64,000 nt of DNA from Verrucomicrobiota bacterium. Its GTDB lineage: Bacteria > Verrucomicrobiota > Verrucomicrobiia > Limisphaerales > UBA9464. How positions within the stretch are numbered: position 1 is the first letter of the stretch; the number at the start of each line of letters is the position of its first letter. The notes beneath the pieces were generated by a model, which worked only from the letters and a program-made list of their open reading frames with translations, was not told the DNA's origin and made no database searches. The stretch covers positions 56,751 through 120,750 of the forward strand of contig JAFLEF010000019.1 in NCBI GenBank assembly GCA_017309115.1, in the 5' to 3' direction. Shown here in pieces: positions 1,884 to 24,262 of the stretch. The position numbers and the translations under genes are program-made.

Positions 1884-1911
1884 TATTCGACTTCTGCGGG
1901 TGTCGGTCACA
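1884..1911 (-). promoter_or_regulatory. Conserved bipartite promoter-like element, copy 1
   Basis: Read on the minus strand this is TGTGAC, 12 nt, then AAGTCGAATA, ending 8 nt before the ATG of the lamin-tail gene. It matches six other elements in the window with the same spacer length. The -35/-10 layout suggests an alternative-sigma promoter; that role is inferred. Confidence 0.6.
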
Positions 1912-1994
1912 AGGGTGGATGGAATTCCCTTCACGGATGGAAGACAGGCATTCGGGACGGTCATTGGCCTCCCGACCTCCACTGCAACCTGAAG

Positions 1995-2215
1995 TCACTG
2001 ACGATGCGTGAGGGTGGCGGCGTCCTTGATTCCCAGCAACCAGGCGGCGAGTCCGGCATCCAGAAAGTAGAGCTTGGCGGTCTTGACGAGCCGCTTGTTG
2101 AGATTGCGGTGGTGCGGTGGAAGCAACCGGACCAGCCAGCTGGCCTCTGCCGAGGTCCGGTGACCACGGTCACCGGGAAGCTGGCCGCAAGCCGTCGAAG
2201 CAGAGGTTCAGACGC
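1995..2215 (-). pseudogene. Relic of an AAA_14/DUF4143 ATPase
   Basis: Two fragments of the familiar ATP-binding DUF4143 protein family are visible on the minus strand in different frames. At about 2147-2215 there is the N-terminal pre-Walker segment (EPLLRRLAASFP followed by VTVVTGPRQ). At about 1995-2150 there is the DUF4143 segment with LLPPHHRN, KRLVKTAKLYFLDAG and LAAWLLGI, closed by a TGA. Everything between them, including the Walker A lysine and Walker B, is missing, so the gene is dead. Families of this type are mobile, often toxin-antitoxin-like accessory genes, so this is probably a decayed insertion between the two large secreted-protein genes. Confidence 0.65.
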
Positions 2216-2291
2216 GCGGGTCACGTGGCAGCAACCGTGCACTGAGCCCATTGTGGATCCACGGACCGGGCGGTCGAGAGGGAGGATGTCG

Positions 2292-5200
2292 TTACGGCCG
2301 GAAGAAGCCTGCCTGGCCGGTTGTTTGGATGGGGAGGATCCAAACTCCGGGCGCAGACGATTGGGAGAGCAGTTTCTCGAGGACATTGGCTCCCGCTCCT
2401 TCGGGAACGTTCCAAGCTGTGGAAGTCAGGGATGGGGCGGATCGCGGACCTTGGCCCCCACCCGGCAACAAGTTCCCGATCAGATATGCAATGCCCTCCT
2501 CGTCGCGGCCGACCCCGGTCACGAGGCGCAATTCCCCAGGGGCGGGAAGCTGTTGGTCGTCAAGGACCCAGATGCGGCAGGCGCGGAATGGGCTGATGTC
2601 GATGCCAGTTCCCGATTCGAGGCGGAGTAGGAATTCGCGGAGGGGCTGTGCTCCCTCGCGGGCGAGAAATGAAACGTTCACCGTGGTCTCGGCGGCGCCG
2701 ACAGGAAACGTGGCTTCGAAAGGAAGGGCTTCGGCATCGTTCCAGCCGTTGCGGGTTCGCGGGAAGAGACGTCCCCGCACGCTGGCCGGGGCGGCCGTCG
2801 AGCCGGCGCGGAGGACGGGGACCGACAGTTCGGACTCGGGAAGAAACAGCCCGGTATCGGAGAAGCCGGCTTCCGGAACAGGCGAGGTGCGGAGTTCGCG
2901 GTACCAGGGCGGGGTCAGGGTTTGGAGGGCGGGTGTCGGTGTCCGGGTGTCCGGGTTTCGAAACAGTTCTTCGTGGCTACGGATTCCGGTTGCCCAGACC
3001 GGCCCGGAGAATTCGGAGGCCGTTTGAGGCAGAAGGGCGGGTGCTGGGAAGAAGGTTTCTCCGGTTCGGAACGATTCGTAGTAGTCTTGGCACGACCAGT
3101 TGAACCAGCCTCCGCAAACCGTCGAGAATAAAGCCAGATCTCCCGATGGAAGGGCGTGTAGCTTTCGGAAATTGCGCGCAGCGCGGTTTCCTAAGGAAAT
3201 GATGTTTTTCCCGTCTTCCGAGATCTTGAGGATCTCGACCGAGCCGAGGGAACTTGGGGTGGAAAGACTGATGGCCCCGATGGTTAGCTCGCCCGTCGAA
3301 CTCAGGGGTCCAAAGGAGTATCCGATTCCAAATCTGTAGGGTGCTATCAACGGTTGGTATTCCCCGTCCAATCGGCCATCGGGAAGGCATCGGAAGAGGA
3401 GGCCGAAGGGAAGGTCTTCAGGCTTGGTTTCCAGCGAGTAATTGAACGCGAAATAGGAACGTCCGACAGCATCGGTTCCGACCAAATCATAGGAGGAACT
3501 AGGCGGACTCATGGCTCCGGGCACCAGTCGCCCATTTCGGTCGAAGAACTGCCATTGGTAGATGTTCTCGTGTTCCTTCTTAATCCATGTTTCGCCCGTG
3601 CTGAGGATCCGAAAAATCGGAACTTTCCAATCTGTCGCGTCTATGGGGGAAAAGCTTGGATCTACGGAACCGTCGGGTTGAAACTTCTTCATCCAGTTTG
3701 TCTCGGTCACCCAGGTTTGGCCCATGAAAGTACCGTCAGGAAAGACGCGCAGGATGGTATCCGGAATGCCCTCAACATCAGGAACCAGACGTCCGGATCC
3801 GGCTCCGAGCATTTCCATCGGTTGGCCTTCGGAGTCGAGAAAGAGGAAGGCGCCCTCTCTCAAGGGGATGCGGGTGACCTCGGGAGCGTCCGTGGTTTCC
3901 CAGTACCATGGACTGTATGAATCCTGAGGAACAAAGAGGCGCTGGACCAAATGAACTCGTTCATCGTCCTCGACCAAAAGCGTCAAGGGTTCGTCAACAG
4001 GTTCTTGATTCAAGACGATTGCAACGTCCGCTTCGATGGGAAGTACCTCAATGATGATACGTTCCAATTCCTCGGGATCGGTATCCTGGAGGACGACTAG
4101 CGGTACAGTGACGGCATTAGTCGTCAACACCAGCGTCTGGTCGAGAGGGGTGAAGTCGGAGCCAGGGGTTGCCGTGCCGGCGGAGCCTGTGCGCAGATGG
4201 ACTTTAGTCGGATCCCCGAACTCCAAGCGAAGAGTGATCGCCGTCACCTCTCCCTCTCGAACCGTTCTGGGGTGCTGCAACTGAACTGGTACGGGCTGTT
4301 CCAGCAACCGGATCCCGAGTTCGGAGCGGCCGGTGGCAGCGTTCTCGACCTCCACCAGTGCGAGCGTGGCGTGCTCCGGCGGCTCAGTCTTACGGTCCGG
4401 CGTTTCGTAGAGTTGCACGCTGGTGACCGATTCTCCGGGTCCGAACCGAATTGGGATCCGATTGGTAAGGTGCGCGCCGCTCCAGAGTTTAAGGTCGGCG
4501 GCGGGACCGGCGACCTCCGCAGTGTCGGGCCGCAATTCCACCGTGGCGAAGGTTGCTTTCGAGAGGTCCCCTTCGCGGACGACGTCGACAACTAGAGGGC
4601 CGGTCAATTCCCGGATGGTCACCGATTCCTTAGCAAAACCTACGGTGGTGTTGTTGGTCTCTGACGCCAACTGAAGTTTGATGTCGTCGAGGATCACGTA
4701 AGGCGAAACCGCTGAGGGAACCGTGATCTCCAATTCTGTCGCCCCTGCCGGAAGGCGCACGGTCCGATCAGCATATTTCCATCCAACCAGTCCTTGAAGG
4801 ATGGGGTTCAGGATCCCGCCTGGGAGTCGGACGGGTTCGAGCTTCTGGTTTCCAATGGAAATCAGGATTTCCCCCGCCGGTGCCATGGTCCGCTCAGCGG
4901 CATAGGCGAATCGAAGTCGCCACTCCTGATTGTCCAGTGGTATGTGTAATCGCTGGCGAAGGAAACCATCCACCAGCGGAATGCCGGGCCGGAACGCGCG
5001 GGTGCCCTGAGCCGCCACCTCGGTCGCAATTTTCCCCCGCCGATCGCTGACCCAAGGGGTCATTCCAGTGGACTCGAAGCTACCGTTGGCAATCACCGCA
5101 GGAAAGGGCCGTTCGCCTGATTGTAGGGGTTGGAAGATGGGGGACAGTGCTCCGTGGACCTGCCCATTGAACCGGGACCCGGTTCCGGCCCGATTAAGGA

Positions 5201-5918
5201 GTGTAGAACCCGAGTCGCGATTGAAATCGAAATGCAGGACGGAATCAGAATTCGGCGCGTTTCCCTGCATGGCTTCTCGAATCGCGATGACGTCGAGCGC
5301 CCGATTCCAGATCCGAAGATCGTCGAGACTGCCGACGAAGTGCCCGTCGATAGAGGTCGTCTTGTCGACGCGGGTGCCGCCGAGGATGAGTTCCATGGGG
5401 TGGGTGGGGGCTCCGGGAATACCCGTCCAGGGAAGGTAGTCGGTCGGATCCCCATCGACGAAGAACGTGCCCCCGGAGGCGTCCACGGTGTAGGCGATGT
5501 GATGCCATCGGCCGTCGGCGACGAAGCCGCCGTTGGGCCGATCAAGGGCTCCGTCCCCGGTCCAGAGCCGATCGCTCCAGGACTTGAAGTAGTAAGAGCG
5601 GATGTACCCGTTGCTGAGGTGAACATCCCAGCCGTTGCCGGATCCGGTGAGATACTTGGTGGCGACGCCCACGAAATTGTTGGTCTGCGTGGTTTTCAAC
5701 CAGAAGGCGACGGTGAATGGGAAGCTGTTGAGCTCGGGTCCGTGGGGGACGACGACATACTGTCCGTCGCCGGTGAAGGTCAGATAGTCTACCTGGGCGT
5801 CCTGAGCGAGCGATCGAACGGATGCGAACCAAAGACCGGCGACTGCGAGAAGGAACGCTGTAAGCCAGGTCCGAGGACGGGAGAATTGGAGCCAGGCGCG
5901 GTGGTCAGAGCGTGTCAT
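2292..5918 (-). CDS. Secreted LamG / CBM-like / Calx-beta repeat protein
   Basis: This is a 1208-residue exported protein. The chosen ATG (5918) gives a signal peptide at about residues 1-39 (TAFLLAVAGLWFASV) and lies 8 nt after a conserved upstream element; the open frame continues further upstream but only through a pseudogene relic. Order of modules: LamG/concanavalin-like fold at about 45-235 (FPFTVAFWLKT, WHHIAYTVD, GSLDDLRIWNRAL), a CBM-like jelly roll at about 285-430 (NGSFEST, YVILDDIKL), two Calx-beta domains at about 445-670 (GSDFTPLDQTLVLT, VEDDE), a degenerate delta-60-like propeller at about 700-1000 with a cysteine pair, and a C-terminal module ending GFFRP. LamG and Calx-beta suggest glycan or Ca2+-dependent surface binding. 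It is paralogous in its C-terminal half to the genes at 10438 and 15266. Confidence 0.85.
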   Translation of the reverse strand: MTRSDHRAWLQFSRPRTWLTAFLLAVAGLWFASVRSLAQDAQVDYLTFTGDGQYVVVPHGPELNSFPFTVAFWLKTTQTNNFVGVATKYLTGSGNGWDVHLSNGYIRSYYFKSWSDRLWTGDGALDRPNGGFVADGRWHHIAYTVDASGGTFFVDGDPTDYLPWTGIPGAPTHPMELILGGTRVDKTTSIDGHFVGSLDDLRIWNRALDVIAIREAMQGNAPNSDSVLHFDFNRDSGSTLLNRAGTGSRFNGQVHGALSPIFQPLQSGERPFPAVIANGSFESTGMTPWVSDRRGKIATEVAAQGTRAFRPGIPLVDGFLRQRLHIPLDNQEWRLRFAYAAERTMAPAGEILISIGNQKLEPVRLPGGILNPILQGLVGWKYADRTVRLPAGATELEITVPSAVSPYVILDDIKLQLASETNNTTVGFAKESVTIRELTGPLVVDVVREGDLSKATFATVELRPDTAEVAGPAADLKLWSGAHLTNRIPIRFGPGESVTSVQLYETPDRKTEPPEHATLALVEVENAATGRSELGIRLLEQPVPVQLQHPRTVREGEVTAITLRLEFGDPTKVHLRTGSAGTATPGSDFTPLDQTLVLTTNAVTVPLVVLQDTDPEELERIIIEVLPIEADVAIVLNQEPVDEPLTLLVEDDERVHLVQRLFVPQDSYSPWYWETTDAPEVTRIPLREGAFLFLDSEGQPMEMLGAGSGRLVPDVEGIPDTILRVFPDGTFMGQTWVTETNWMKKFQPDGSVDPSFSPIDATDWKVPIFRILSTGETWIKKEHENIYQWQFFDRNGRLVPGAMSPPSSSYDLVGTDAVGRSYFAFNYSLETKPEDLPFGLLFRCLPDGRLDGEYQPLIAPYRFGIGYSFGPLSSTGELTIGAISLSTPSSLGSVEILKISEDGKNIISLGNRAARNFRKLHALPSGDLALFSTVCGGWFNWSCQDYYESFRTGETFFPAPALLPQTASEFSGPVWATGIRSHEELFRNPDTRTPTPALQTLTPPWYRELRTSPVPEAGFSDTGLFLPESELSVPVLRAGSTAAPASVRGRLFPRTRNGWNDAEALPFEATFPVGAAETTVNVSFLAREGAQPLREFLLRLESGTGIDISPFRACRIWVLDDQQLPAPGELRLVTGVGRDEEGIAYLIGNLLPGGGQGPRSAPSLTSTAWNVPEGAGANVLEKLLSQSSAPGVWILPIQTTGQAGFFRP

Positions 5919-5926
5919 GGTGAGGG

Positions 5927-5954
5927 TGTTCGGGATTCGCGAAGAACGGTCACA
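5927..5954 (-). promoter_or_regulatory. Conserved bipartite promoter-like element, copy 2
   Basis: The minus strand reads TGTGAC, 12 nt, ATCCCGAACA, then 8 nt to the ATG of the LamG gene at 5918. It is the most divergent of the seven in the downstream box but keeps the CGAA core and the spacer. Confidence 0.55.
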
Positions 5955-6017
5955 TTCGGAACTGGGCGCAGGTTCTGGATCGCACCTGGCCTCACCGGAC
6001 TGGGTCCCAACGGCAAA

Positions 6018-6047
6018 GAACCGCGCGGTCAGGTCACCGCGCGGTTC
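6018..6047 (-). terminator. Strong hairpin, probable terminator of a lost gene
   Basis: A perfect 12-bp inverted repeat (GAACCGCGCGGT and its complement) encloses a 6-nt loop and, on the minus strand, is followed by TTTG. It lies just downstream of the protease relic at 6070-6200, so it is probably the old terminator of that gene. Confidence 0.5.
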
Positions 6048-6069
6048 GAGTGGCAGGAGCCGGGACGGT

Positions 6070-6200: not shown

Positions 6201-6585
6201 GCTCCGGGGTTATCTCACGTATCGACGCCGTCCAGCTACACCCCAAAATCACACAGGATTTCCGGGTGTCCTATCCTTCACAAAAGTTCTTCACCGTGTG
6301 CGTAGCCAAGCTCAGTCGGAAGGAAATCAACGGTTACGACATGGACGCGGGAAGGGATGGCTCATGCTAGTAGGGTTTTCGGGTTCGGCTGGGGACGGTC
6401 ATAGCAGGCTCAGAACATTTCCCTGGAAATGGTTTCCAGACCTTCCGACGGCCATGTCCGGGCTCCGCTTGAGAAAAGAAACGATGCTGTCCGAATTTTT
6501 TCCTGCAATCCGCATGGGATTGGTGAAGGGGCCGTGACTGGCCCCGAGAACCAATGTTTGAAACGACTCCCTATCTTGTTACAGT
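6201..6585. other. Non-coding stretch between relic and small secreted-protein gene
   Basis: I see no credible gene here. Two small hairpins are visible: a perfect 7-bp stem at 6423-6439 (CTGGAAA, loop TGG) and a 6-bp stem near 6528-6545 (GGGGCC/GGCCCC). Just before the downstream ATG there is a TATCTT box about 8 nt upstream, a possible -10 for the plus-strand gene. Confidence 0.4.
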
Positions 6586-7062: not shown

Positions 7063-7185
7063 GCCGGGTTTGTCCGGGAAGAGAAGTGGCCTCGATCTGG
7101 GTCGGTCGGGTGGTCCTAGTGCTGGCAACCTGTACCGAAAGCCTCGATTGACTGTTGCTTCAGATTCCCTCCCTTGAATGAAGCC

Positions 7186-7264: not shown

Positions 7265-10198
7265 TTACCGGATCCGGAAGAACCGCTGATCGCCGGCGGT
7301 TGGTAGCGGAAGTGTCTGGCGACCGTCGAGGGACCCGATGGTTGCGGTGGAGACGGGACTCCACTGGAGCAGGTCGGTGCTGGATTCCAACGTCAGGTTG
7401 GCGCCCGGAAATCCCCACAGGCTGGCTTCGGGCGTACTGTCGGGGCGGAGAGTGATGCCGGTGAGGGAACCTGAGATGGAAGGAAGGCGAACGCGGGCAA
7501 TGCCTGGGGCCGGAACCCCAGCGTAGGACGCGAATCCACCCGTGACGATCGCGGAGCCGTCCCCCAAGGCGGTCAAGCGGAAGGCGCGGTCGGACGGACC
7601 CACGCCCGGATCGAAGGAGGAATCCACGGTCCCGTCCTCGTTGAGAAGGGCAAGGTGCCGACGAGGCAGTCCGGCAACCTGGGTGAAGGCGCCCGAGATG
7701 AGGACCTGTCCATTGGGGAGAGGCAGGACGTCCAGGAGCTCGCCGTTCGGACGGATCGATTGGAAGGTCAGATCCACGGAGCCGTCCTGATTCAGTCGGC
7801 CCAACCCGCGATAGGAACGGCCCCCGACGGCCGAGAAAAAGCCCGCCACGTAGGCGCGGCCATCGGGAACGGTCCGGAGGGCCGTAATCGGATTGTTCAC
7901 GCCCGTCCGAGTGAGCGGGAAGGATTCGTCGAGCGAGCCGTCGGGATGAATCCGGATCAGATGGGAAACCCGTTTTCCATTGTACTGCTCGCAGTAGCCG
8001 CCGAGCAGGATTCGGCCATCGGGAAGCAGGCCGATGCCGCGTGCGAAGCTTGCCAGGCGGCCATTCATCCCGGGTTCCAGTCGGAAGCGGGTATCCCGGG
8101 AACCGTCGGCGTTCAGGCGGACGAATCCCCGCGCCATGAGACCATCCGCCTCGGTGAACCATCCACCGACCAGGATTCCGCCGTCAGGCTGCTCCACCAG
8201 CGCGATCACCGATCCATTGATGCGGGCACGGAAGCCCGGGTCCCGGGAACCGTCCTCCTTAAGCCGGACGAGATTCTCCTGAACCTGGCCATCCACCGTT
8301 CCGAACTGGCCGGCGACCAGCCACCCGCCCTGTCGGAGCGGCAGGGCTTGGATCGTTGTGGCTTGCGCCATTCCCTCCAGGGGGAGAGGCGCCGCCAGGA
8401 TTCGGGGTCCGCTGAACGAGGTGTCGAGTCCGGAATCGGGGTGAACCAGGGCGATGCAGGAACGCGGTGTTCCATCCAGCGACGAGAACTCCCCAAAGAC
8501 CGCGAAACGTCCGTCAGGCCGCGCGACGACCCCTTCCGCGAGGCCATTCAAGGCACCGATGGCCAGCGGCAGCGGGGAACCGGGGCGGTCGTCATCCGCG
8601 ATCCGGAGTTGGGCCGTGAGCGTGCCGAGAGTCAGACGGAGGGATTCGTCGGCTTCGATGACCTCATCCGGAAGGGCGCGGATCTGGAAGGACTGCGTTC
8701 GTTGGGTGTCGGTGAATACCAGGGTCGTTGGAGTGACCACGTAATCCACGCCTGGCGCGGCGGAGTCGCCATCGACTCCGGCAACGAGGTCGAGCGTGCG
8801 GGATTCGCCCGGAGCGAGGTTGCCCGAGAACCGGACCGACCATGTGGCCTCGCCGCCGGCCTCACGGATCAGGCTGGGGCCCGGAATGAGGGTGAAGGAC
8901 GGATCGTCATCCACGATCGTGACGGTGAGCGATGACTGGCGGGCCAGACCGTGCGGGCCTTGGACCGACCCCAGGCCGATCAAGACCTGTTCGTCCCCCT
9001 CCGGGAGCTCATCCTGGAGGAGTTCGATGTCGACCACGGCGTTGGATTGGCCGGCAGCGAAGTTGACAGCAACGGAGGTCGGAAGCGCGTAGTCGAGGTT
9101 GGTTTTTGCGGAGCTCGAACTGGAGAAGGTCAGGTTCACCCGGGTCGACGTCGACACATCCCCCTCCCGCGAAAGCTCGATCGTGAACCGGGGATCGCCT
9201 TCGGTGACCGTGAGCGTGGATCGGGTGAAACCGATGCGGCTGTTGGCGGTGCGGTAGCGGGCGATGAAGGGTGCCATCCGGGTGATGGTTTGGGAGACGT
9301 CAGACTCGCCGGGCTGCCCCGCCGGCACGCCGAGGGATTGCCCCGAGTAGGTGAGCCGAGGATTGGAGAAGTAGGGAAGACCGATGCCCGGCTCGTAGGA
9401 CATGACGTCGCGGAAGGTGACTCCGTCGGCTTCGAAGCGATGACCGTAGGAATACGGAAACACTCCGGGCACGAGCTGGAGATCGGTGTTGTAGGAATGC
9501 TCGCGGTCATGGGTTGCACCAAAGATGTGCCCAATCTCATGCGCCAGAACGAGACCCATATCCCGTTGGCCCGCGTCGGCCATCCGCCGCGCCGCGCCAA
9601 AAGCGAGGGCTGCGTTGCCTCGAGCCACCCCGATGTCGGCGACGGCCGAGAAGCCGACGGCCTCTTGCTCCACTAGGAGAAACACGATGTCGGCCTTGTA
9701 GTTTTCCCGCAGGGATTGGGTGCTGGCCAAGTTCCGATACTCCGAATAGGCGGTGACCATGTTGGCCGTTTCCGGTTGGTTGACCTGGGCGACGTGGACC
9801 AGATTGATTCGAACGCCGGTGAGGCTGTTCTCAAACACCCGGTTCGCGGTGGCGATCATCGCGTCAATCCGGCGGTTGATGCCGTCAACACTACCTTCGG
9901 CCGCGAGCGCCGTCGGGGTGTACAGGAAGAGGAGATCAATCGTCACCACGGGCATGGTGGGGTCCCAGATTCCATCCTCCGCGCTGGCGGGCGCCACCGC
10001 ACGGTCGCGGATGCGCTGGGCCCATTCGGGGAGGGCGCCGGCCGTGTGACCGGCCGCACACCAGCCCGAGCGGCACGGGGACGGTGGGGGAATCGGGGCG
10101 GCTGCCGCGGCGGGAGATTCCGGCGTCAGGCTGGCATCCTGCCCCAGGACGACGGCCGCGGCGAAGAAGGTGATGATGAGAGCGATGGTGGAACGCAT
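7265..10198 (-). CDS. Secreted metzincin-type zinc metalloprotease with Calx-beta and seven delta-60 repeats
   Basis: This protein has 977 residues. The ATG at 10198 gives a signal peptide (residues 1-20, ALIITFFAAAVVLGQ) and lies 9 nt after a conserved upstream element; the longer open frame upstream is noise. The catalytic domain spans about 75-300: the zinc motif HEIGHIFGATHD near residue 220 carries three His ligands, the catalytic Glu and the following Asp, and a VMSY Met-turn follows near 265, as in reprolysin-like (M12B-type) metzincins. Two Calx-beta domains follow (about 310-530), then seven delta-60 repeats (about 545-900, pattern PDGrxxxGG.f....G.....RL..DGS.D..F). The end is a module closing with FFRIR. 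Likely function is extracellular proteolysis on or near the cell surface. Two truncated paralog relics lie at 6070 and 14845. Confidence 0.88.
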   Translation of the reverse strand: MRSTIALIITFFAAAVVLGQDASLTPESPAAAAAPIPPPSPCRSGWCAAGHTAGALPEWAQRIRDRAVAPASAEDGIWDPTMPVVTIDLLFLYTPTALAAEGSVDGINRRIDAMIATANRVFENSLTGVRINLVHVAQVNQPETANMVTAYSEYRNLASTQSLRENYKADIVFLLVEQEAVGFSAVADIGVARGNAALAFGAARRMADAGQRDMGLVLAHEIGHIFGATHDREHSYNTDLQLVPGVFPYSYGHRFEADGVTFRDVMSYEPGIGLPYFSNPRLTYSGQSLGVPAGQPGESDVSQTITRMAPFIARYRTANSRIGFTRSTLTVTEGDPRFTIELSREGDVSTSTRVNLTFSSSSSAKTNLDYALPTSVAVNFAAGQSNAVVDIELLQDELPEGDEQVLIGLGSVQGPHGLARQSSLTVTIVDDDPSFTLIPGPSLIREAGGEATWSVRFSGNLAPGESRTLDLVAGVDGDSAAPGVDYVVTPTTLVFTDTQRTQSFQIRALPDEVIEADESLRLTLGTLTAQLRIADDDRPGSPLPLAIGALNGLAEGVVARPDGRFAVFGEFSSLDGTPRSCIALVHPDSGLDTSFSGPRILAAPLPLEGMAQATTIQALPLRQGGWLVAGQFGTVDGQVQENLVRLKEDGSRDPGFRARINGSVIALVEQPDGGILVGGWFTEADGLMARGFVRLNADGSRDTRFRLEPGMNGRLASFARGIGLLPDGRILLGGYCEQYNGKRVSHLIRIHPDGSLDESFPLTRTGVNNPITALRTVPDGRAYVAGFFSAVGGRSYRGLGRLNQDGSVDLTFQSIRPNGELLDVLPLPNGQVLISGAFTQVAGLPRRHLALLNEDGTVDSSFDPGVGPSDRAFRLTALGDGSAIVTGGFASYAGVPAPGIARVRLPSISGSLTGITLRPDSTPEASLWGFPGANLTLESSTDLLQWSPVSTATIGSLDGRQTLPLPTAGDQRFFRIR

Positions 10199-10207: not shown

Positions 10208-10235
10208 TTTACGGGTTCCATGGCCAACCGTCACA
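10208..10235 (-). promoter_or_regulatory. Conserved bipartite promoter-like element, copy 3
   Basis: The minus strand reads TGTGAC, 12 nt, AACCCGTAAA, then 9 nt to the metalloprotease ATG at 10198. The CGTA variant of the core is shared with the pseudopilin copy. Confidence 0.6.
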
Positions 10236-13748: not shown

Positions 13749-13776
13749 TCTTCGAGTTTTGTTACCAACGGTCACA
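13749..13776 (-). promoter_or_regulatory. Conserved bipartite promoter-like element, copy 4
   Basis: The minus strand reads TGTGAC, 12 nt, AACTCGAAGA, then 8 nt to the ATG at 13740. It sits 20 nt from the stop of the pseudopilin relic, exactly as copy 5 sits 20 nt from the stop of the intact pseudopilin gene. Confidence 0.62.
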
Positions 13777-15265: not shown

Positions 15266-18200
15266 CTAGGGAAAGTACTTGAAGAACCGAACGCTGTTCG
15301 TGGACGGACGCGGCACGCGAATATGAGTGCCTTCCATCGAACCAATCAGCAGCGGAAAGGCAGGCGTCCACGGGCCTCCCGGGCTGGGACTTTCCTGGAT
15401 ACGCCACCATGGCATTTCTTCCGGTACTAGGACCAGGGCCTCAGAGTCAATGGTGGTGCCCGGCACTGATGCAATCGCTAGTCCATCGCCCTGGGGGTTG
15501 GCAGGTTCCGGCAATACCCACACCCGACACGCGGTGAACCCGCTGAGTTCGGCCCCCTCGGTCGCTTCCATCCGCACCAAGTATTCGCCCGCGGTCCAGT
15601 TTGTGCCTGGAATCCACTTGCTGAGATCCACGGAGGTTTCGCCGTCGCCACGAAGGAAGTGAGCCTCCCACGCCTGTACCGACGCCTCGCTCCACTGAGG
15701 GCCGATCCTCTTCCAGATCCGTCCCCGGACCGTCGCTGGGAAGGCGGTGGATCCGGTGCGCTGAATTGTCACGCGGGCGGAATTCTGTACACAAAAGATG
15801 CCTGTGGATGGAATGCCTGCTTCGGAGGGGTGTTGTGGGAACCACCATCGCGCGGGGTTTCCGACAAGGAAATTCTCATCGTGTGCCGTCCAGACAGCGG
15901 TTGGCCCGTACGTTCGCCTCAAGAACGGAGCGATCGGAGGGAATAGGGTCTCGGTGCCGTCTGGGTGGAGCAGCACGTCATGGACCGGCCAGCAACTCTC
16001 CCAAAGAACCCATGGACTCCGGGTGCATCTTGAGAGCCTCAGGTAGATGTCTCCGTCCGGCAATACGGACCAGCCAGTCAATCTGTGTTCCCAGAGCGGA
16101 TACTGGCTGCCTACGGTTCCATCCGGGGCGATCCGAACGACAAAGTCGGGGGGTTGGGTAACGACTTCGCCTGAGGGGAGAACTTCCCAGCGATAGGGAA
16201 CTGACTCCAGTAGGGGCCGGTAAGTCTGATCCACGGATCCATCCTTCAAGATTCGGACCAATCCTCCGTTCGTACTGCCGAAATAAACCCGGCCTTCGGA
16301 GTCATACGATTGTGGCGGATTCTGAACCCATTGCTCACCCGTTTCGGAACTGGGGTTAAGGGTCAGATCCGAACGCGCTGTGAAGTGGGGATCCATCCGC
16401 CCATCCTGAAGCAACCGGACGACCTCACCGGTCTGTTGGCGGACAAACAGCGTGCCATCGGGTGCCACCACAACCGCCTCCGCATCGCTCCAGACTTGGA
16501 ATGAAGGGTCCCATTGTCCGTCGGGCGACAGACGGCGTAGCCGAGTTCTCCCGCCTTCGAGAAACCTCAGAATCAGCCCAGTATCCGGGCTCAGAAACAC
16601 GTCGCGCGACAGGCCATCCACGACTTCGAGACCGGGAATCGTGAGCATGCCGGTCCCGTTTCCGAAGGAGGCGTCTGGCTGGCCGTCAGGACCTACGCGT
16701 AGCACGACCAGCGAGTTCGGGGAGTCGCCCAGCTGGCCGACGACGCAAAAGGATTGGTTGGGAAGTTCCAAGAATCGAAACCGGGCTAGGTCATGCAGTG
16801 TGATCGGCAGTGAGAATTGGCCGTTACCCTGTCCGATGTCGGGATCGGGAAATCCGTCCGAGTTCAGTCGCAACATGGAGTTTCCTCTCCAAACCAAGGC
16901 CTTCCCAGAGGCCAGCGGGATGACGTGTTTCAAGCCAGGATCGTCTTCACCCCAGTTGTGGTCATGCGGTGCGATCGCAAGCTCCTGTCGCAGCATGGCG
17001 AATTCGTTGTCGACGATCTCGACGCGGGCGGAGAACCAGATCTCATCCGGTGCCTCCGGTTGTCCCGTGAGCACCACCCGAAACGCTCGCGAACCGTCCA
17101 CTTCAAAGTTGTCGTGCAAGCGGATCTCGAAGGATTGCTCGGTCACCCCTTCCTCAAAACGAAGCGTTCCGCTACCTTCCTCAAAATCCACTCCTGGGAC
17201 AGCCGCGCGCGACGAGCTTTCGAGGGCCGCTTCCACGCGATACCGGACTTCGAAGGGGGCTACACGCGCGTTGGGAGGGGTCCGGCTGACCAGAAACCGA
17301 ATCCGCTCGTTCCGCTCGGACACTGCATCCATCAGGTCGGGTTCCGTCCTCACAACCACCCTCACCTCCGGCTCGTCATCCAGGATCGTCACTTGGGTTC
17401 TCTCGGGCACGATGACGGGACTGTCGGGAGCCATCAGGTCCACCGCGAACGCCCGGGAATCGCTCCAGAGGTCATCATCGATGATGGGCACTTCCACGAC
17501 CTTGTTGGTCTCTCCGGCCAGGAAGAGCAGTTCCCCGCTGACTCCCTGGTAGTCCCGTCCGGCCACTGCCGTTCCGTCGCGGGTGGACACCAACAGCCGC
17601 AGGGGTTCCTCGATACGCCGGGTGCGCCGAATGTTGATCCGCGCGATCCGGTCGCTTTCGCGCACCGGGGGGACCTCGACCTCAACGAAACTGCCCCGAA
17701 TTCGGTTGAGCCAGAACGACAGACCTGAGTCCGGGCCGCAGACCACCAGGTCGGGAGAGCCATCGCCATTGAGGTCACCCGCCGCCAACGTGCTCAGGAT
17801 GCCTGGCGGACTCAGCGGACTTCCCGGAAGGGTGCCGGCCTGCCCGGCACCGGTCTGCCCAACACCAGTGAGCAGTCCCACGTAGGAATGTTCGTTGAGG
17901 ACGGCGAGATCCGGGTAGCCGTCCCGGTTCAGGTCCACGGGGACCACCATGCGCGGGAACGATGCCCCGGCGTGGTAGGTTTTGACCTTCTCGAAGGCGC
18001 CATCGCCCTTGCTGCGGAAGGCAGTGACACCCTCTGACAGAGTATCGGCGCTGATCAGGTCCAGATTGCCGTCGCGGTCCAAGTCCGCCACCGCCACGTC
18101 AAAGGGTTGCGATCCCACGGGGAGCAGGGAGCTCCGGAAGGAGCCGTCCTTTTGGTTCAGAAACACGCGCAGGGCATCGTCACCCCGGAGCGCCACGGCA

Positions 18201-19261
18201 AAATCGACGGTGCCATTCTGGTCGAAGTCGCCCACGGCCAGCCCCCAGGGATTCTTCCCGGCCAGGAACGGGGAACCGGGGCTCTCCCGAAATCCACCCC
18301 GGCCGTCTCCCAGCAGCAGCGACAGCGTGCCGTCGCCGTAGTTCGAAACGAGCAAGTCCGGCCAGGTGTCTCCGTTGAAGTCGGACACACGAACAGCCCG
18401 TGGTTCGACGCCCGTGGGCATCGCGACGCCCGTTGCCGCCAGTCCACCCTGGCCGTCGCCCTTCAGGAACGTGATGGCGTTATCCATCCGGTTGACCGCG
18501 AGCACATCGGGCAGGTCATCGCCGTCGAGATCCGCCACGGCCAGCGCAAACGGCAGCTTGCCGGCGGGAAACGGTGATCCCGGGGCCGGGGCAAACCAGC
18601 CATTGGTCCGCCCTAACAGGACGGCCACCGCATGGTCGGCCTCCAGGGCCACCATGACATCGGCCCGTCCATCCCGATTGAGATCGGCAATGATTGGCGC
18701 AACTGGGCGGGCACCCACCATTTCGGTATGGCTAGGCTGAGGCGAGAAAATCGCCCGCCCGCTCTGAGCGTCGTCATCAAGGAAGTAAACCGTCACCAAC
18801 AGGGACGTCTCCATCAATCCATCGTTATTGCGGATCAGCGTGTCCGGTGACACGGCGGAGACCTCGAAGATAATGGTCTGCTGGCCCTCCGGAATCGAAT
18901 CCGGAATCAACTGAATCGGAATCTGTTCACCGGATCCGCTCGGCAGTCGGCGGACGGAATAGACGCCGTCGATGGGCACAAAGTCCTCGCCGGGCACCGC
19001 GGTGCCGCGGTCGGTGGACCGCACCCTTACTTTGGCCGCCTCCCCCTGAGTGACGGGGATACTAAGCCAAATGCCTCCCCGCGCTTCGTCTCCGCCTTGG
19101 ATCCACGGGTAGGCGCTAATCCCCATGGGCCACACGATGGTCGCCTCCGCGGCCGCGGCGGCCGGCGGTAACAGCCCTGCCAGCAAACAGACAAGCCACG
19201 CAGCGAAGAGCACACGGCGGACGAAGTTGAGTGAGGAATCGAGAATTGTTAGAGCAGTCAC
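15266..19261 (-). CDS. Secreted Calx-beta / FG-GAP / delta-60-like protein, paralog 2
   Basis: This is a 1331-residue protein if translated from the GTG at 19261. I prefer that start because it lies 7 nt after a conserved element, as in the sister genes; a TTG at 19288 is also in frame but falls inside the element. A signal peptide follows at about residues 12-38 (VRRVLFAAWLVCLLAGLLPP). Modules: a first Calx-beta (about 30-135), seven FG-GAP repeats (about 165-500; DLNRDGRADVM, DFNGDTWPDLL, DLDRDGNLDLI), two more Calx-beta domains (about 505-720), a delta-60-like propeller (about 730-1080) with the C-x10-C pair, and the C-terminal module ending FFKYFP. It is a paralog of 10438-13740 with an extra N-terminal and an extra central Calx-beta domain. 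It is likely a Ca2+-binding surface or matrix protein. Confidence 0.87.
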   Translation of the reverse strand: MTALTILDSSLNFVRRVLFAAWLVCLLAGLLPPAAAAAEATIVWPMGISAYPWIQGGDEARGGIWLSIPVTQGEAAKVRVRSTDRGTAVPGEDFVPIDGVYSVRRLPSGSGEQIPIQLIPDSIPEGQQTIIFEVSAVSPDTLIRNNDGLMETSLLVTVYFLDDDAQSGRAIFSPQPSHTEMVGARPVAPIIADLNRDGRADVMVALEADHAVAVLLGRTNGWFAPAPGSPFPAGKLPFALAVADLDGDDLPDVLAVNRMDNAITFLKGDGQGGLAATGVAMPTGVEPRAVRVSDFNGDTWPDLLVSNYGDGTLSLLLGDGRGGFRESPGSPFLAGKNPWGLAVGDFDQNGTVDFAVALRGDDALRVFLNQKDGSFRSSLLPVGSQPFDVAVADLDRDGNLDLISADTLSEGVTAFRSKGDGAFEKVKTYHAGASFPRMVVPVDLNRDGYPDLAVLNEHSYVGLLTGVGQTGAGQAGTLPGSPLSPPGILSTLAAGDLNGDGSPDLVVCGPDSGLSFWLNRIRGSFVEVEVPPVRESDRIARINIRRTRRIEEPLRLLVSTRDGTAVAGRDYQGVSGELLFLAGETNKVVEVPIIDDDLWSDSRAFAVDLMAPDSPVIVPERTQVTILDDEPEVRVVVRTEPDLMDAVSERNERIRFLVSRTPPNARVAPFEVRYRVEAALESSSRAAVPGVDFEEGSGTLRFEEGVTEQSFEIRLHDNFEVDGSRAFRVVLTGQPEAPDEIWFSARVEIVDNEFAMLRQELAIAPHDHNWGEDDPGLKHVIPLASGKALVWRGNSMLRLNSDGFPDPDIGQGNGQFSLPITLHDLARFRFLELPNQSFCVVGQLGDSPNSLVVLRVGPDGQPDASFGNGTGMLTIPGLEVVDGLSRDVFLSPDTGLILRFLEGGRTRLRRLSPDGQWDPSFQVWSDAEAVVVAPDGTLFVRQQTGEVVRLLQDGRMDPHFTARSDLTLNPSSETGEQWVQNPPQSYDSEGRVYFGSTNGGLVRILKDGSVDQTYRPLLESVPYRWEVLPSGEVVTQPPDFVVRIAPDGTVGSQYPLWEHRLTGWSVLPDGDIYLRLSRCTRSPWVLWESCWPVHDVLLHPDGTETLFPPIAPFLRRTYGPTAVWTAHDENFLVGNPARWWFPQHPSEAGIPSTGIFCVQNSARVTIQRTGSTAFPATVRGRIWKRIGPQWSEASVQAWEAHFLRGDGETSVDLSKWIPGTNWTAGEYLVRMEATEGAELSGFTACRVWVLPEPANPQGDGLAIASVPGTTIDSEALVLVPEEMPWWRIQESPSPGGPWTPAFPLLIGSMEGTHIRVPRPSTNSVRFFKYFP

Positions 19262-19268: not shown

Positions 19269-19296
19269 TCTTCGAATTCCACGGCCAATGGTCACA
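19269..19296 (-). promoter_or_regulatory. Conserved bipartite promoter-like element, copy 5
   Basis: The minus strand reads TGTGAC, 12 nt, AATTCGAAGA, then 7 nt to a GTG codon at 19261. It is the closest to consensus and decides the start of the downstream gene. Confidence 0.62.
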
Positions 19297-19316: not shown

Positions 19317-20042
19317 TCACGGCACGTCGTAGCCGGTCTTCACGTCGTCGCCGGTGTTGGGGGATCCCCGGTTCACCCGGCCGTCGGGTCCGTAGAAGAA
19401 CCAACTCCAGTCGTACCTCATGCCAAAGTGGGGATTGCGGAAGACCACGCGCAGCTTGTCGGCATGGCCATCCAGAAAGACGCCGTTGATGAGGGGTTGC
19501 CCCTTGGGCAATTGATCGTGGGAACGGGTGTAGTGGGTGTCCACGATGTCATTGAAGAGCATTTGGCCGGAGGGCCGGACGAAGTGTGACTCCTTGAGCG
19601 TGTCGTGGGTGAGCGTGTTCCAGGCGACGACCCAGCGGTACGGATACGACACCAAGTCGTTGGTGAGACGGGGAATCTTCCCCCGAAGGATCTTGTCGGC
19701 TGGGCAGCGCCAGGAGCGGCCGTCTCCCAGCTTCAGCAGCGATGGAATGCCGCCGTAGAGAACCGTCGCGTCGCTGTTTCGTTCGAGGGAGGCGTAGTCA
19801 TCGCGGCGTCCCCCGTAGGCCATCATGGTGGGCACGCGTCCGGCGTGGTCGTCGAGGTAGAGGGAGGAAGCGAGGCCGACCTGGCGCAGGTTGTTGAGGC
19901 AGGCGACGCGATCGCCCTGCAATTTGGCGCGGGACAGCGCAGGAAGCAGGAGCCCGGCGAGGATCGCGATGATGGCGACGACGACGAGCAGTTCGATTAG
20001 GGTGAAGGCGCGGGAAGCTTGGGAGGAGGCTGGGAGATGCAT
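19317..20042 (-). CDS. Type II pseudopilin-like protein (prepilin N-methylation motif)
   Basis: This protein has 241 residues. The N-terminus has a class III prepilin signal: a short leader to Ala12, then [18 protein letters not shown] with Phe13 as the processed residue and Glu17 at +5, followed by [10 protein letters not shown]. The body ([37 protein letters not shown], the WFFYGPDG tail) is the DUF1559/H-X9-DG-type pseudopilin that is expanded in Planctomycetes and Verrucomicrobia. Such proteins are cleaved and methylated by PilD-like peptidases and build short fibres or the secretion pseudopilus. It lies between the kinase and the FG-GAP gene, with a truncated copy at 13797-13960. The ATG is 10 nt after a conserved element that also contributes GGGGAGG, a possible but very close Shine-Dalgarno sequence. 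Confidence 0.88.
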
Positions 20043-20052: not shown

Positions 20053-20080
20053 TCTACGAATTCCGTGGGGACCCGTCACC
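20053..20080 (-). promoter_or_regulatory. Conserved bipartite promoter-like element, copy 6
   Basis: The minus strand reads GGTGAC, 12 nt, AATTCGTAGA, then 10 nt to the pseudopilin ATG at 20042. It lacks the leading T of TGTGAC but keeps the spacer and the core. Confidence 0.55.
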
Positions 20081-20094: not shown

Positions 20095-23000
20095 TCAGGG
20101 CTCGACCGTGATCGCGACGAGGAAGGGGACCACCGCGTAGCCTTCCGCCACCAGGTCCATGGAGACGATCTCCCGATCAGGATGCGGGTTGTCCCACGCG
20201 CGATGATAGAGCCTGACCTTGTGATCGCGCCGTTTCGACCAACTGGTCTCGCCTTCCCACGCGACACTGCCCGCATCGCAACGGCTGAACAGGAACCCGC
20301 TCCACCATTCCCCGATATCGACGCCACTGCGGAGAGGAAGCTCGGCCGTGGAGCCGTCGGCATAGTGGAGGCGATAGAATCCGGCCTGTTCCCCGGCGTG
20401 ATCTCCGAAATGAGCGGAATGGAGGAAGTGCAGGCGTTTGCCGTGCCGTCTGACGGGGATGTTGAGGACTTCCCGGCCGACTCGCCAACGGCGGAAGGGT
20501 TCTCGCCCGACACGGCCGGTGGTAACTACGCCCCGGATGTCCCATTGTACGCCGTCGAGCTCATGGACTCCGGGCTGAAGGGCGTCCAGAGTGTCCTCGA
20601 ATTCCTCGTAGCGGTTGGCGGGGATCCATCCGGAATCGAGGTGGCCGTTGTAGGCCTGGGTGAGGTCCACGCACGGATCGGGTGTGGCCGGATCGCGTTG
20701 GGGCCAGAAGCTGCGGTCTTCGGGGCGATCGGGTTCCGGGAGATCGGGGCGGGCGTTGCGTGCCTGTTGCCAGCGTTCCTCACGAAGCGTCGCTGCGGCG
20801 ATCTGTAGGCCGGCGGCGGGATTTCCCTGACCCAGTCGCCGCAGTTCGGCGTCGCGCCACGGCAGGACGCTGTGGAGTTCGACGCCGCAAAGAGTAGGTT
20901 CTGAGCCCAGCACGGCGCGCTGGAGGATGCTCCTTTGGGGGTCATAGCCCAGGTTCCAGCTGCTGCCTTCGCCTCGGTCGAGGACAACCAGCGATTGGCC
21001 GGAATGGCCGTCGCACACCTCAAAGGCGTGGAGTCCGCTTCCTGTCGAGCTCTCCATGGTCTGCAGGATGAGGCGGCTGCCGTCCGGGGTGAATAACAGG
21101 TCGCTGGCGGCGAGGGAGCGGATGCGGGCGCGTGCCGTCAGGTTCCATGAGGGCACAGTGCGGATCTCCAGCCAGCCGTCGAGGCGCACCGATGCCATCC
21201 TCCGGCCATCCGCGCTGAAGGCAGTGCACATGTGGTGCTGGTCCTTGCTTGTGGCGTGTTCGAGGAAACGATGGACGCAGTCTCCCGACGCCGTGTCGAA
21301 GACGCCCCCTCCATCAACCCCGCCGGAGATAGCGAGCCAGCGCCCGTTCGGGCTGAACTGGAGCATCCACGGGTAGCGATTGGAGGAGACGTTAAACCGG
21401 TGAAGCAGGCTCCCCGTATTTCCATCCCATAGACAGACCTGGCCGCGAGTGCTGGCGGCGACCTTGCTGCCGTCGGGTTGGATGGCCAGCGCCCATCCGG
21501 GGCCCTCCAATCCGCGGAACGAGCGTTCAATGCGCCCCTCAGGCATGCGCCAGCGATGGACGCGCCGGTCGGCGGCACTGGTGAACAAGCTTCGGCCGTC
21601 CGGGGTCCACGCCAGATCAGCCACGAACCATTGGTGCCCCGGAAGGAATCCTTCGCGCCGGCCTGATACCGAGTCCCAGAGGGCGATGGTGCCGTCTCGC
21701 GAACCGGTGGCCAACTGGCGACCGTCGGGTCGGGTGGCTCCCGACGTGACGGGATACTCGCCCTGGAAACGCCGATCCACCGTGGGTAATCCCCACACCA
21801 CCACGCGGGGCGCTCCGACTGTCGAGCGGAAGACGGCCCCGGCCCAATGCCCGTTGCGAGTGCGGACCAGGCTGCCCTCGTTGACAATCGCGTCCGTGGG
21901 CAGAGATGCGGATACTTCGCCGGAGGACCAGTCCCAAAGATGAATGAGCCAGTCGTTGGCCGAGCTCATCAGGGCGGCATTGGGACCGCCGCGACCGACG
22001 ATGCGGGCGGCCTGAGTGCTGGAGGGCATCCGTAGGCCGGTTTCCAGATTCCAGAACGCGAGCCGGCCCGGGGCCGACATCAGAGTGGCCATCCGGGTCC
22101 CATCGTCGGAAAGCGCGGCCCACCAGACCCACGAGGGAGTTCCCTCGATCGGGGACTGAAACCGCGGAGTGGCACTACCGACCATCCAGGCGCCGGCCTT
22201 TCCATCGGGTTCAACCGCCGCGTAGGCCGTGGCGTCGTGATTGAATTCGACCCGGTTGAAGCGAAATCCGGGCCGCGGGAAGGTGTCCACGCGCGAACCG
22301 TCGCGGGTGTTCCAGACGGTCCACTGCAGGCCATGGTCGGCGGCCCGTGATTGGGCGAAGATCCGGGTTCCCGACCGGGAAAAGTTGGCCCATTCAAAGA
22401 TATGTCCGGGGTCCGGATCGAGCCGGAAGCTGACTTCCCCAGAAACGGAGGAACGGACGGTGACGGGACCGTCTTCCGAGACCGTGAGCAGCAGGTCCTC
22501 TTCGGGATGGAAGTGAATTGAGCGCGGCTTCTGGGCGGTCGGATCATGGATTGCGATCTGCTCCCAGGTGCCGCAGCGGAAGAGGCGAAACCCGGGTCCG
22601 GGCCCGGCGACACCGAGGGTTCGGCCGGCCGGATCGAAGTCAGCGGCGGGGACGGGTTGCAAAGGTGAGCCGAGGCGGAAGGCGACCTTGGAATCCGGCA
22701 GGTTGACCACCTCGAGCTCGCCTTCGGAGCCGGCAGCGAACCACTGGCCGTTTTCGGAGAGGGCACCCCAGACCGACGAGTACTCGTTATCGGCCACGTC
22801 GTTGGTCAAGACCACGACGCTGCGATGGATGGTGTGGGCCTTGGCCATGAGGCGACCCCATTCTACGTGGCGGAAGCGGTCGGGTTGCTGCAGTAACCGC
22901 TCCCGGGCGGCGGAAAGATTGCCGGCCTCGATGCTGTTCTCGGCGAATTCGAGGGCCGCCCGGTAGTCGCGGGCGAGAACGGACTCGCGTTCGGCCAGGG

Positions 23001-24096
23001 CGACGCGCGCCTGCCAGAGGGTTGAGGCAAGGCCTGCCACGAGGGCCAGCACCAGGGCGCTCACTAGGGGTCGGCGCCTGATCCACCGGCGGACTTGGCC
23101 AGGCCAGGTGGCAGGACGGGCGACGACTGTTTCACCGTTCAACCAGCGATCGAGGTCGTCGGCGAGCGCTCCAGCGCTGTCGTAGCGGGCCGACGGGTCC
23201 TTCTCCAGACAACGGAGGCAGATGGCCTCGAGATCGGCATCGACTTCCGGGGCCGCGGGTCGAATTCGCGCCGGTTCCTCGTCCGCGACCCGGCGGAGCA
23301 CTTCCAGGGTGGACCCGCCTTGGAAGGGTGGGCGGCCGGTCAGCAGTTCGTAAAGAATGGCCCCAAGACCATAGACATCGGCAGGGACTCCGGCCTGACG
23401 GGCCCGTCCGTCGGCCTGCTCCGGCGCCATGTACGCGGGAGTGCCGAGCACGGTGGTCGACAGGGTGAGTTCGCTGTCGCTTCCGGACAGTTTGGCGAGG
23501 CCGAAGTCGGCCACATGGGCAAGGCCCTCCGCGTCGAGCAGCAGATTGGACGGTTTGATGTCGCGATGGAGAACGCCGCGCTGGTGGGCGTGGTGGACGG
23601 CGCGAGCGGCGGTTGCGATGAGGCGCGCTGACTCTTGGGGTGTGAAGCGACGACGGCGCAGGGCATCGGCGAGGCTGCCGTGTTCGAAGTAGCGGAGGGT
23701 CAGGAAGGGCGAGCCCGCATGGCGACCGACCTCGTACAATGGAACGATGTGGGGGTGCTCAAGCCGACCCACGGCTTCGGCCTCGATCCGCAATCGTTCG
23801 AAGGCGTCCCGACGGGTGAGGGCGGCGCCGGTGAGGGTTTTGAGGGCGACGATCCGGTTAACGGACCGTTGGAACGCTTTGAAGACGATGCCGGTTCCGC
23901 CCCGGCCCAGCTCGCCGAGGATTTCGAAGCCGCCGATTTCGGTGGGAGTTTCCTGGGTTTCGGGGAGATCGGGAAGGTCCTCAGGGTCGTCCCGAAGGGC
24001 CGATCGAAGCAGGCAGGTGGCGCAGTTGCCGCCGGCGTGGTTTGCGGGGAGGGGCCGCTGGCAGCGTGGACACGACTGGGAGGGTTCCGTGGGCAT
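20095..24096 (-). CDS. Membrane Ser/Thr protein kinase with WD40 propeller
   Basis: This protein has 1333 residues from the ATG at 24096, which opens the usual zinc-ribbon-like N-terminus (CPRC at 9-12, CATC at 25-28). Kinase domain at about 58-330: glycine loop GRGGTGIVFK, Lys86 in VALKTL, HRDIKPSNLLLD near 180, DFGLAK and GTPAYMAPEQ, so all catalytic residues are present. A single membrane helix lies near 345-365 (VSALVLALVAGLAS), then WD40-type repeats to about 1090 (SGATRPDGRQLATGSRDG, ALWDS) and a C-terminal beta-rich region. The topology puts the kinase in the cytoplasm and the propeller outside. The adjacent ECF sigma factor, transcribed the same way upstream, is the expected partner; kinase-linked ECF groups are known in Planctomycetes and Verrucomicrobia. 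The regulatory signal is unknown. Confidence 0.9.
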   Translation of the reverse strand: MPTEPSQSCPRCQRPLPANHAGGNCATCLLRSALRDDPEDLPDLPETQETPTEIGGFEILGELGRGGTGIVFKAFQRSVNRIVALKTLTGAALTRRDAFERLRIEAEAVGRLEHPHIVPLYEVGRHAGSPFLTLRYFEHGSLADALRRRRFTPQESARLIATAARAVHHAHQRGVLHRDIKPSNLLLDAEGLAHVADFGLAKLSGSDSELTLSTTVLGTPAYMAPEQADGRARQAGVPADVYGLGAILYELLTGRPPFQGGSTLEVLRRVADEEPARIRPAAPEVDADLEAICLRCLEKDPSARYDSAGALADDLDRWLNGETVVARPATWPGQVRRWIRRRPLVSALVLALVAGLASTLWQARVALAERESVLARDYRAALEFAENSIEAGNLSAARERLLQQPDRFRHVEWGRLMAKAHTIHRSVVVLTNDVADNEYSSVWGALSENGQWFAAGSEGELEVVNLPDSKVAFRLGSPLQPVPAADFDPAGRTLGVAGPGPGFRLFRCGTWEQIAIHDPTAQKPRSIHFHPEEDLLLTVSEDGPVTVRSSVSGEVSFRLDPDPGHIFEWANFSRSGTRIFAQSRAADHGLQWTVWNTRDGSRVDTFPRPGFRFNRVEFNHDATAYAAVEPDGKAGAWMVGSATPRFQSPIEGTPSWVWWAALSDDGTRMATLMSAPGRLAFWNLETGLRMPSSTQAARIVGRGGPNAALMSSANDWLIHLWDWSSGEVSASLPTDAIVNEGSLVRTRNGHWAGAVFRSTVGAPRVVVWGLPTVDRRFQGEYPVTSGATRPDGRQLATGSRDGTIALWDSVSGRREGFLPGHQWFVADLAWTPDGRSLFTSAADRRVHRWRMPEGRIERSFRGLEGPGWALAIQPDGSKVAASTRGQVCLWDGNTGSLLHRFNVSSNRYPWMLQFSPNGRWLAISGGVDGGGVFDTASGDCVHRFLEHATSKDQHHMCTAFSADGRRMASVRLDGWLEIRTVPSWNLTARARIRSLAASDLLFTPDGSRLILQTMESSTGSGLHAFEVCDGHSGQSLVVLDRGEGSSWNLGYDPQRSILQRAVLGSEPTLCGVELHSVLPWRDAELRRLGQGNPAAGLQIAAATLREERWQQARNARPDLPEPDRPEDRSFWPQRDPATPDPCVDLTQAYNGHLDSGWIPANRYEEFEDTLDALQPGVHELDGVQWDIRGVVTTGRVGREPFRRWRVGREVLNIPVRRHGKRLHFLHSAHFGDHAGEQAGFYRLHYADGSTAELPLRSGVDIGEWWSGFLFSRCDAGSVAWEGETSWSKRRDHKVRLYHRAWDNPHPDREIVSMDLVAEGYAVVPFLVAITVEP

Positions 24097-24115
24097 CCGG
24101 GCACTGGTGAAGGGT

Positions 24116-24226
24116 TCAGTCAGCCGCAACAGAGAAGCGGCGAGAGGTCCCGGACTGACCTTCAGCGTGTTGTTTCACCACTCCGCCCGTAGCGGGTGAA
24201 CCTTGAACCGGATTCTTCGAAATCAT
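24116..24226 (-). CDS. Possible 36-codon leader ORF ahead of the kinase
   Basis: An ATG lies 8 nt after the conserved element, exactly where the other six copies have the start of a real gene. It opens a 36-residue frame (MISKNPVQ ... RRFSVAAD) that ends 19 nt before the kinase ATG and is in a different frame from it. If the element drives a leaderless transcript this peptide would be translated first and could couple or attenuate kinase translation. It has no recognisable domain and could also be chance. Confidence 0.3.
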   Translation of the reverse strand: MISKNPVQGSPATGGVVKQHAEGQSGTSRRFSVAAD

Positions 24227-24234
24227 TTACGGGA

Positions 24235-24262
24235 TCTTCGGATTCCGCCGGGAATCGTCACA
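24235..24262 (-). promoter_or_regulatory. Conserved bipartite promoter-like element, copy 7
   Basis: The minus strand reads TGTGAC, 12 nt, AATCCGAAGA, then 8 nt to the ATG of the short leader ORF, 138 nt ahead of the kinase start. It lies between the sigma factor and kinase genes, so the kinase may be controlled by its own partner sigma. Confidence 0.6.

Follow-up and report, generated by a model that had tools for sequence, protein, structure and literature searches.

We describe a locus in a 64,000-nucleotide stretch of a Verrucomicrobiota bacterium of the order Limisphaerales (GenBank assembly GCA_017309115.1, contig JAFLEF010000019.1, positions 56,751 to 120,750), hereafter the window, in which genes for a Ser/Thr kinase, a pseudopilin-like protein and several probably secreted repeat proteins are each preceded by a two-box element, GTGAC-N16-CGWA. 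A gene for an extracytoplasmic function (ECF) sigma factor stands beside the kinase gene. A first-pass annotation, made from the letters of this DNA, had listed seven such elements and read them as alternative sigma promoters; here they are followed through the window, its genome and related genomes, and are called putative class I promoters.

The locus and its genes

All features of the locus lie on the minus strand and are given in the order in which they would be transcribed. The ECF sigma factor gene, the proposed reader of the promoters, occupies 24328..25077 (249 aa); its product matches Sigma70_r2 (2.9e-9) and Sigma70_ECF (2.2e-7), scores 48.8 bits against a cut-off of 42.9 for TIGR02937, has PF04542 and PF07638 matches and contains a sigma-4 helix by alignment, while its comparison with solved structures gave no clear match, the best ECF chain having E 0.37. 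Between its stop codon and the kinase gene stands a class I element (24235..24262), whose ATG, 10 nt past CGAA, opens an upstream open reading frame (ORF) of 36 codons (24116..24226) that stops 20 nt ahead of the kinase ATG. The kinase (20095..24096; Pfam Pkinase 2e-50, WD40 repeats) carries an N-terminal CxxC segment and a hydrophobic segment, both recognised by eye. Behind it, the element at 20053..20080 (GGTGAC-N16-CGTA, ATG 12 nt past CGTA) precedes a pseudopilin-like protein of 241 aa with an N-methylation motif (19317..20042; Pfam N_methyl 4.2e-7, NCBIfam TIGR02532 above cut-off).

Two FG-GAP/Calx-beta genes follow among the remaining members of the array. The one at 15266..19261 (1331 aa) has its element at 19269..19296, with GTG 9 nt past CGAA, and its paralogue at 10438..13740 (1100 aa, 46-57% identity) has a tandem duplicate of that element at 13749..13776, with ATG 10 nt past CGAA. 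The element at 10208..10235 (TGTGAC-N16-CGTA, ATG 11 nt past CGTA) serves a reprolysin-like metalloprotease with Calx-beta and DUF5122 repeats (7265..10198, 977 aa). The next, at 5927..5954 (ATG 10 nt past CGAA), serves a laminin-G protein with a weak Calx-beta match (2292..5918, 1208 aa), and the last, at 1884..1911 (TGTGAC-N16-CGAA, ATG 10 nt past CGAA), serves a Lamin-tail-domain protein (1..1875; Pfam LTD 1.1e-42) that extends beyond the window and measures 1263 aa on the contig. The Lamin-tail-domain, laminin-G, metalloprotease and 1100-aa FG-GAP/Calx-beta proteins are probably secreted, as judged by eye from their N-termini. No Rfam family scored above its cut-off in window positions 1-26000.

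Relics of reprolysin/DUF5122 and pseudopilin genes lie between the intact genes at 5955-7264 and 13777-15265. Among them is an eighth, decayed copy of the element with one mismatch (6376..6403, TATGAC-N16-CGAA), whose ATG, 12 nt on, opens 12 codons; behind it are relics of a gene resembling the reprolysin/DUF5122 gene at 7265-10198. The gene array seems to grow and decay via tandem duplication. The sites at 13749 and 19269 are part of such a duplication, with 53 of 60 bases identical just upstream, and are not independent of each other. Their boxes have stayed the same at 12 of 12 bases and their spacers agree at 8 of 16, which looks like selection on the boxes.

Pattern, spacing and chance

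Each of the seven elements was recovered on the minus strand at the position first assigned to it, and GTGAC-N16-CGWA matches nowhere else in the window. One hundred dinucleotide shuffles of the window gave a mean of 1.02 +/- 0.91 matches and a maximum of 3, none reaching 7, in keeping with the earlier judgement that seven sites exceed chance. The fixed N16 spacer is present in all seven. The consensus originally drawn, TGTGAC-N12-AANYCGWANA, held less uniformly: the 10-nt second box is present in six elements and fails at 5927-5954, which reads ATCCCGAACA, and the first box is TGTGAC in six, the element at 20053-20080 starting GGTGAC. The start codons had been placed 7-10 nt past the 28-nt element, and the measured distances, in order of increasing coordinate, are 8, 8, 9, 8, 7, 10 and 8 nt, or 10, 10, 11, 10, 9, 12 and 10 nt counted from CGWA.

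In the whole genome (7.53 Mb), the strict form GTGAC-N12-AANYCGWANA has six matches, all at the window locus, against one for the reversed control. With the 28-nt pattern, six of seven genome-wide matches at up to one mismatch are sites of the window locus, and at up to two mismatches the count is 34 against 24 for the control.

Related loci

Relatives of the window ECF were sought in 51 genomes of its family and 321 of its order, and 45 stretches, mostly the best-scoring, were fetched. A full site was defined as TGTGAC with at most one mismatch, N16, CGWA, an ATG or GTG 9-12 nt past CGWA and an ORF that runs for 20 codons or more. The main set comprised nine loci, eight of clade I, the group of the window's ECF, and one of a sister pair; their 152.6 kb (4.5 kb counted twice) hold 23 N16 box pairs and 17 full sites, seven of these being the window's. 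By comparison, where the family's other ECFs are encoded, 38 loci spanning 607.6 kb (with an overlap of at least 5.5 kb) gave 20 box pairs and two full sites, 14 further PF07638 loci (277.9 kb) nine box pairs and no full site, and the remainder of the window's contig (80.7 kb) two box pairs and no full site. Twelve other spacer lengths yielded 0-2 full sites each in the nine loci. Five more distant ECF loci (L196-L200, 48-57% identity) were without clade I sites, and one scan of viral contigs found no relatives of the window ECF. As a scan of the relatives with the window's matrix preceded the counting, the locus count is independent of the window, not blind.

In the same nine loci, a start codon (ATG or GTG) lies 9-12 nt past CGWA at 21 of the 23 box pairs when ORFs of any length are admitted, against a background of 387/3,246 (11.9%) for CGWA in these loci. 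Two box pairs, L083:4893 and L088:7462, lack a start codon at this distance and were taken as chance; four sites stayed outside the count of 17 for too short an ORF, namely the 6376 relic (12 codons), L083:9782 (18), L135:10694 (5) and L144:6538 (12).

Two paralogous loci of the window's own genome share the motif. Just outside the window and in opposite orientation (C23:46491-54818, L052), a second kinase-ECF pair, its ECF 60% identical, has three more sites, which precede an upstream ORF with the kinase, a Calx-beta/esterase protein and a pseudopilin. A third pair at C1:300 kb (ECF 69% identical) has two. An extended form, TGTGAC-N16-CGAAGYAGG, was derived from five sites in relatives, where the element often continues in this way; in 321 genomes it matched six times, always at clade I loci (G006, G008 and four times G038), against one control match. 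Five of these six were known beforehand, and the sixth, previously unseen, lies at a distance of 23 kb from its ECF and is followed by an ATG 12 nt on. From these sequences the element appears to occur where a cognate ECF gene is present, with one exception (L214, below). In L144 (G008:C61), the match between ECF and query begins only at residue 87 (open frame 172), which may reflect a broken gene or an assembly error.

The arrangement around the kinase was compared in seven loci (two on the window's contig, L083, L132, L133, L135 and L144); L134 and L088, without a clade I site at the kinase, stand outside this comparison. The order is ECF, site, kinase in six of the seven and site, kinase, ECF at C23:46 kb. 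Only in L133 does the start codon that follows the site share the frame of the kinase; in the others it opens an ORF of 5-70 codons. At C23:46 kb and in L083, L132 and L135 this ORF terminates on a kinase ATG, the two overlapping as ATGA, and in L144 it overlaps the kinase out of frame.

Motif variants tracking the sigma factor

Two sister ECFs, one encoded at C1:284 kb of the window's genome and the other by a member of a different family within the order, pair with support of 100/100. Beside this pair the element takes a different second half: TGTGAC-N16-CCAAGTA occurs three times (L088:6619, L196:13883/13908) and has no match in the 132.6 kb of clade I loci or in 653.9 kb of loci from other ECFs. 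In L196 two CCAAGTA-type copies diverge from one intergenic region. An assignment of the genes behind the sister sites as reprolysin genes was dropped, since Pfam detects Calx-beta and DUF5122 domains in each of them and, at E <= 1e-3, no reprolysin domain.

The proteins vary in parallel. By alignment, all ten ECFs of clade I and the sister pair share the sigma-4 helix [KR]MR[LI]xRWR, which the other 46 readable rows all lack, and nine of the ten have a GTGAC-type site. In the sigma-2 segment, QRFL is present in 7/7 readable clade I proteins and YLKRFL in 2/2 sisters. A shared -35 half thus goes with a shared sigma-4 helix and a changed -10 half with a changed sigma-2 segment, as a sigma/promoter pair predicts.

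A third promoter class is possible. KGTAAC-N16-TTCA lies behind the ECF gene in 3/3 loci (L136:9989, L139:6048 and L147:3131) and was counted three times in 48.9 kb against twice in 605 kb, a post hoc count since the pattern was spotted by eye first. More broadly, among 30 loci from another search, GTAAC follows the stop codon of the ECF gene by at most 100 nt in 12, compared with 1/30 for each of the two words used as controls; eight of these 30 loci had been inspected beforehand, including three of the 12, and four of the 12 belong to a single genus and are almost identical in sequence. The ECF of L219 has an internal stop, so its junction may be misplaced in this count.

Comparison with known ECF systems

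Our literature search brought up no work on sigma factors in Limisphaerales. Group ECF43 includes EcfP/PknT of Vibrio parahaemolyticus and EcfK/PknS of Xanthomonas citri (PMC13147305; PMC8999054). As in the sections of these papers that describe ECF43, the window ECF is encoded beside a Hanks-type Ser/Thr kinase, and its acidic region 2.2 motif is partly lost, the window protein having QARD where DAED is usual. The loss takes another form, however: in QARD, AARD and similar motifs the first acid is gone and the second kept, whereas ECF43 factors have the DxxD acids replaced with a Thr inside, so the window group falls outside ECF43 by this feature. Its conserved Thr (DLT) likewise lies beyond the motif that holds the ECF43 phosphosite, and the proposed targets differ in being surface-type proteins, a comparison drawn on genes. 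We noticed no anti-sigma gene next to the ECF gene of the window, though no search aimed at one was made. A second likeness, drawn from gene context, is with the kinase-linked groups ECF59, ECF61, ECF62 and ECF217, which have representatives in planctomycetes, a related phylum, and in which the ECF also adjoins a Ser/Thr kinase; no promoter for any of them was met with in the sections of PMC8999054 consulted. The kinase-linked ECF system is known and the promoter class appears new, as judged without the promoter logos of the main ECF classification.

With respect to promoters, the hallmarks described for ECF factors are AAC in the -35 and CGT in the -10 region, and about 55% of ECF factors are described as autoregulated (PMC8103513); the -35 AAC motif occurs in about two-thirds of ECF promoters (PMC4598750). 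The class I elements resemble this canonical form in having two unlike boxes, a 16-bp spacer and a -10 box that begins with CG, and differ from it in the base at -10, which is A and not C, and in the nearness of the start codon to the presumed transcription start. One Streptomyces sigma-E target starts with TGTGAC, but has another -10 box in the account given in PMC6767563.

Promoters of the Bacillus subtilis sigma-W type have the form TGAAAC-N16-CGTA, which likewise combines two unlike boxes, a 16-bp spacer and a -10 box opening with CG.

Interpretation and rival explanations

The motif, its spacing, its placement at gene starts, its conservation, its restriction to the loci of this ECF group and the different -10 half at the neighbouring pair are read directly from the DNA, and together with the ECF-like geometry they support the original proposal of an alternative sigma promoter. 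We consider it very likely that the class I elements are ECF-sigma promoters, read by the ECF factor encoded at 24328-25077 and serving a small regulon at the locus. KGTGAC would be the -35 box and CGWA, 16 bp away, the -10 box; the window's ECF would read the window sites and its paralogue (C23:49963-50715) those of the neighbouring locus. The kinase would sense an outside or envelope signal and then activate the ECF factor, possibly by phosphorylation, as may be expected by analogy with the ECF43 systems. The activated factor would turn on transcription of the kinase gene and of the genes for surface-type proteins at the same locus. The predicted regulon would comprise a receptor-like Ser/Thr kinase and probably secreted or surface proteins of the FG-GAP, Calx-beta, laminin-G, leucine-rich repeat, reprolysin and pseudopilin types, and the upstream ORF, ending on or near the kinase start codon, would couple its translation to that of the kinase.

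The numbering of sigma-E promoters (G-12 T-11 C-10; PMC4598750) bears on the transcripts. If applied here, it puts the last A of CGWA at -10 and the start codon at about +1 to +4, so that mRNAs from class I sites would be leaderless or nearly so. We infer sigma binding, the transcription start, leaderless translation, coupling and phosphorylation from these sequences and parallels.

Several observations weigh against this interpretation. The -35 box GTGAC lacks the AAC motif, GTAAC being found in three related loci, and no clade I site was found in the window upstream of the ECF gene itself. One clade I locus (G048:C143) has a single degenerate site, CGTTAC-N16-CGAA, before an FG-GAP gene, and the spacer at L132:2938 is 17 bp long. 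The tree joins clade I and the sister pair in a group of ten (support 94/91) but gives no inner order, and clade I may consist of more than one branch. The sigma-2 segment QRFL is not confined to clade I, being found in one further ECF (L087_17). Two of the sister sites, one per locus, precede the Calx-beta/DUF5122 gene with an ATG 14 and 13 nt on, and the third, which lies on the other strand, has no start codon near it. In another family, G178 has TGTGAC-N16-CCAAGTA at a WD40 kinase behind an ECF gene (L214:9605, ATG 12 nt on), and the sigma-4 helix of that ECF is KEAVRRLR, which runs counter to the helix correlation.

The broader searches point the same way. The looser form TGTGAC-N16-CGWA had 13 genome-wide matches, eight of them on the window's contig, against 16 for the control, and by itself therefore has no genome-wide excess. 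GTGAC-N16-CGWAGA gave 87 matches against 149 for the control in the 51 family genomes. CCAAGTA-type sites stayed below their control in the 321 genomes (7 against 21), and TGTGAC-N16-CGAAGYAGG had no match in the window's own genome. The motif was accordingly rejected as a general promoter of the family, GTGAC-N16-CGWAGA being without excess there. The first-pass annotation had named hits at random positions within genes, at the same density, as a finding that would overturn its proposal: the strict form withstood this comparison, and the loose form showed no excess in the genome or the family.

A further objection concerns the stretch between the presumed -10 box and the start codon, where 12 of 24 clade I sites have Shine-Dalgarno-like bases by a loose test, overlapping the start codon in three. 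Such bases are unexpected if the stretch is untranscribed, and right after CGWA they would fit a transcript that begins further upstream, as it would if the two boxes were an operator for a DNA-binding repressor or activator with the true promoters lying upstream. We regard an operator as very unlikely: the boxes are unlike each other and show no repeat, direct or inverted; next to the sister ECF pair only the -10 half has changed, the -35 half and spacer being kept; and the ECF and the kinase are the sole shared regulators seen by eye in the ORF lists of the loci, where no systematic search was made. That the sites are functionless by-products of tandem duplication of gene modules is scarcely credible: the tandem duplication of the 13749 and 19269 sites and the gene relics within 5955-7264 and 13777-15265 fit it, yet the boxes of the duplicated pair were kept while half the spacer changed, several downstream proteins belong to different families, and the same boxes recur in other genomes.

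The elements might also be real promoters whose reader is a different sigma factor, or which several related ECFs share, the linked ECF being neither the sole nor the main reader. The window's genome encodes at least 17 ECFs of this family at E <= 1e-20 among the matches listed, and cross-talk is plausible among the ECFs of the three paralogous loci that share the motif. The motif loci nevertheless coincide with this ECF group, the 38 loci of other ECFs hold two full sites in 607.6 kb, and we think a different or shared reader unlikely.

Implications

If the class I elements are indeed read by their linked ECF factor, the locus would provide a concrete promoter and a likely regulon for a kinase-linked ECF sigma factor. 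A broader picture, which we hold to be possible rather than probable, is that the Verrucomicrobia of this order possess many kinase-ECF cassettes, each group with a private 16-bp two-box promoter (GTGAC/CGWA, GTGAC/CCAAGTA, GTAAC/TTCA and others) and with sigma-2 and sigma-4 regions diversified against cross-talk, and that in the window's group every promoter is fused to the start codon, leaving the whole surface-protein regulon leaderless and the kinase coupled in translation to a leaderless upstream ORF. This is made less likely by the sister start codons, 13-14 nt away, and by the GTAAC class, which has no fixed start codon. The sister sigma/promoter pairs form a natural series in which changes in the -35 and -10 boxes can be matched to residues, so that the code of ECF recognition and the avoidance of cross-talk become testable, and leaderless mRNAs are predicted across a regulon.

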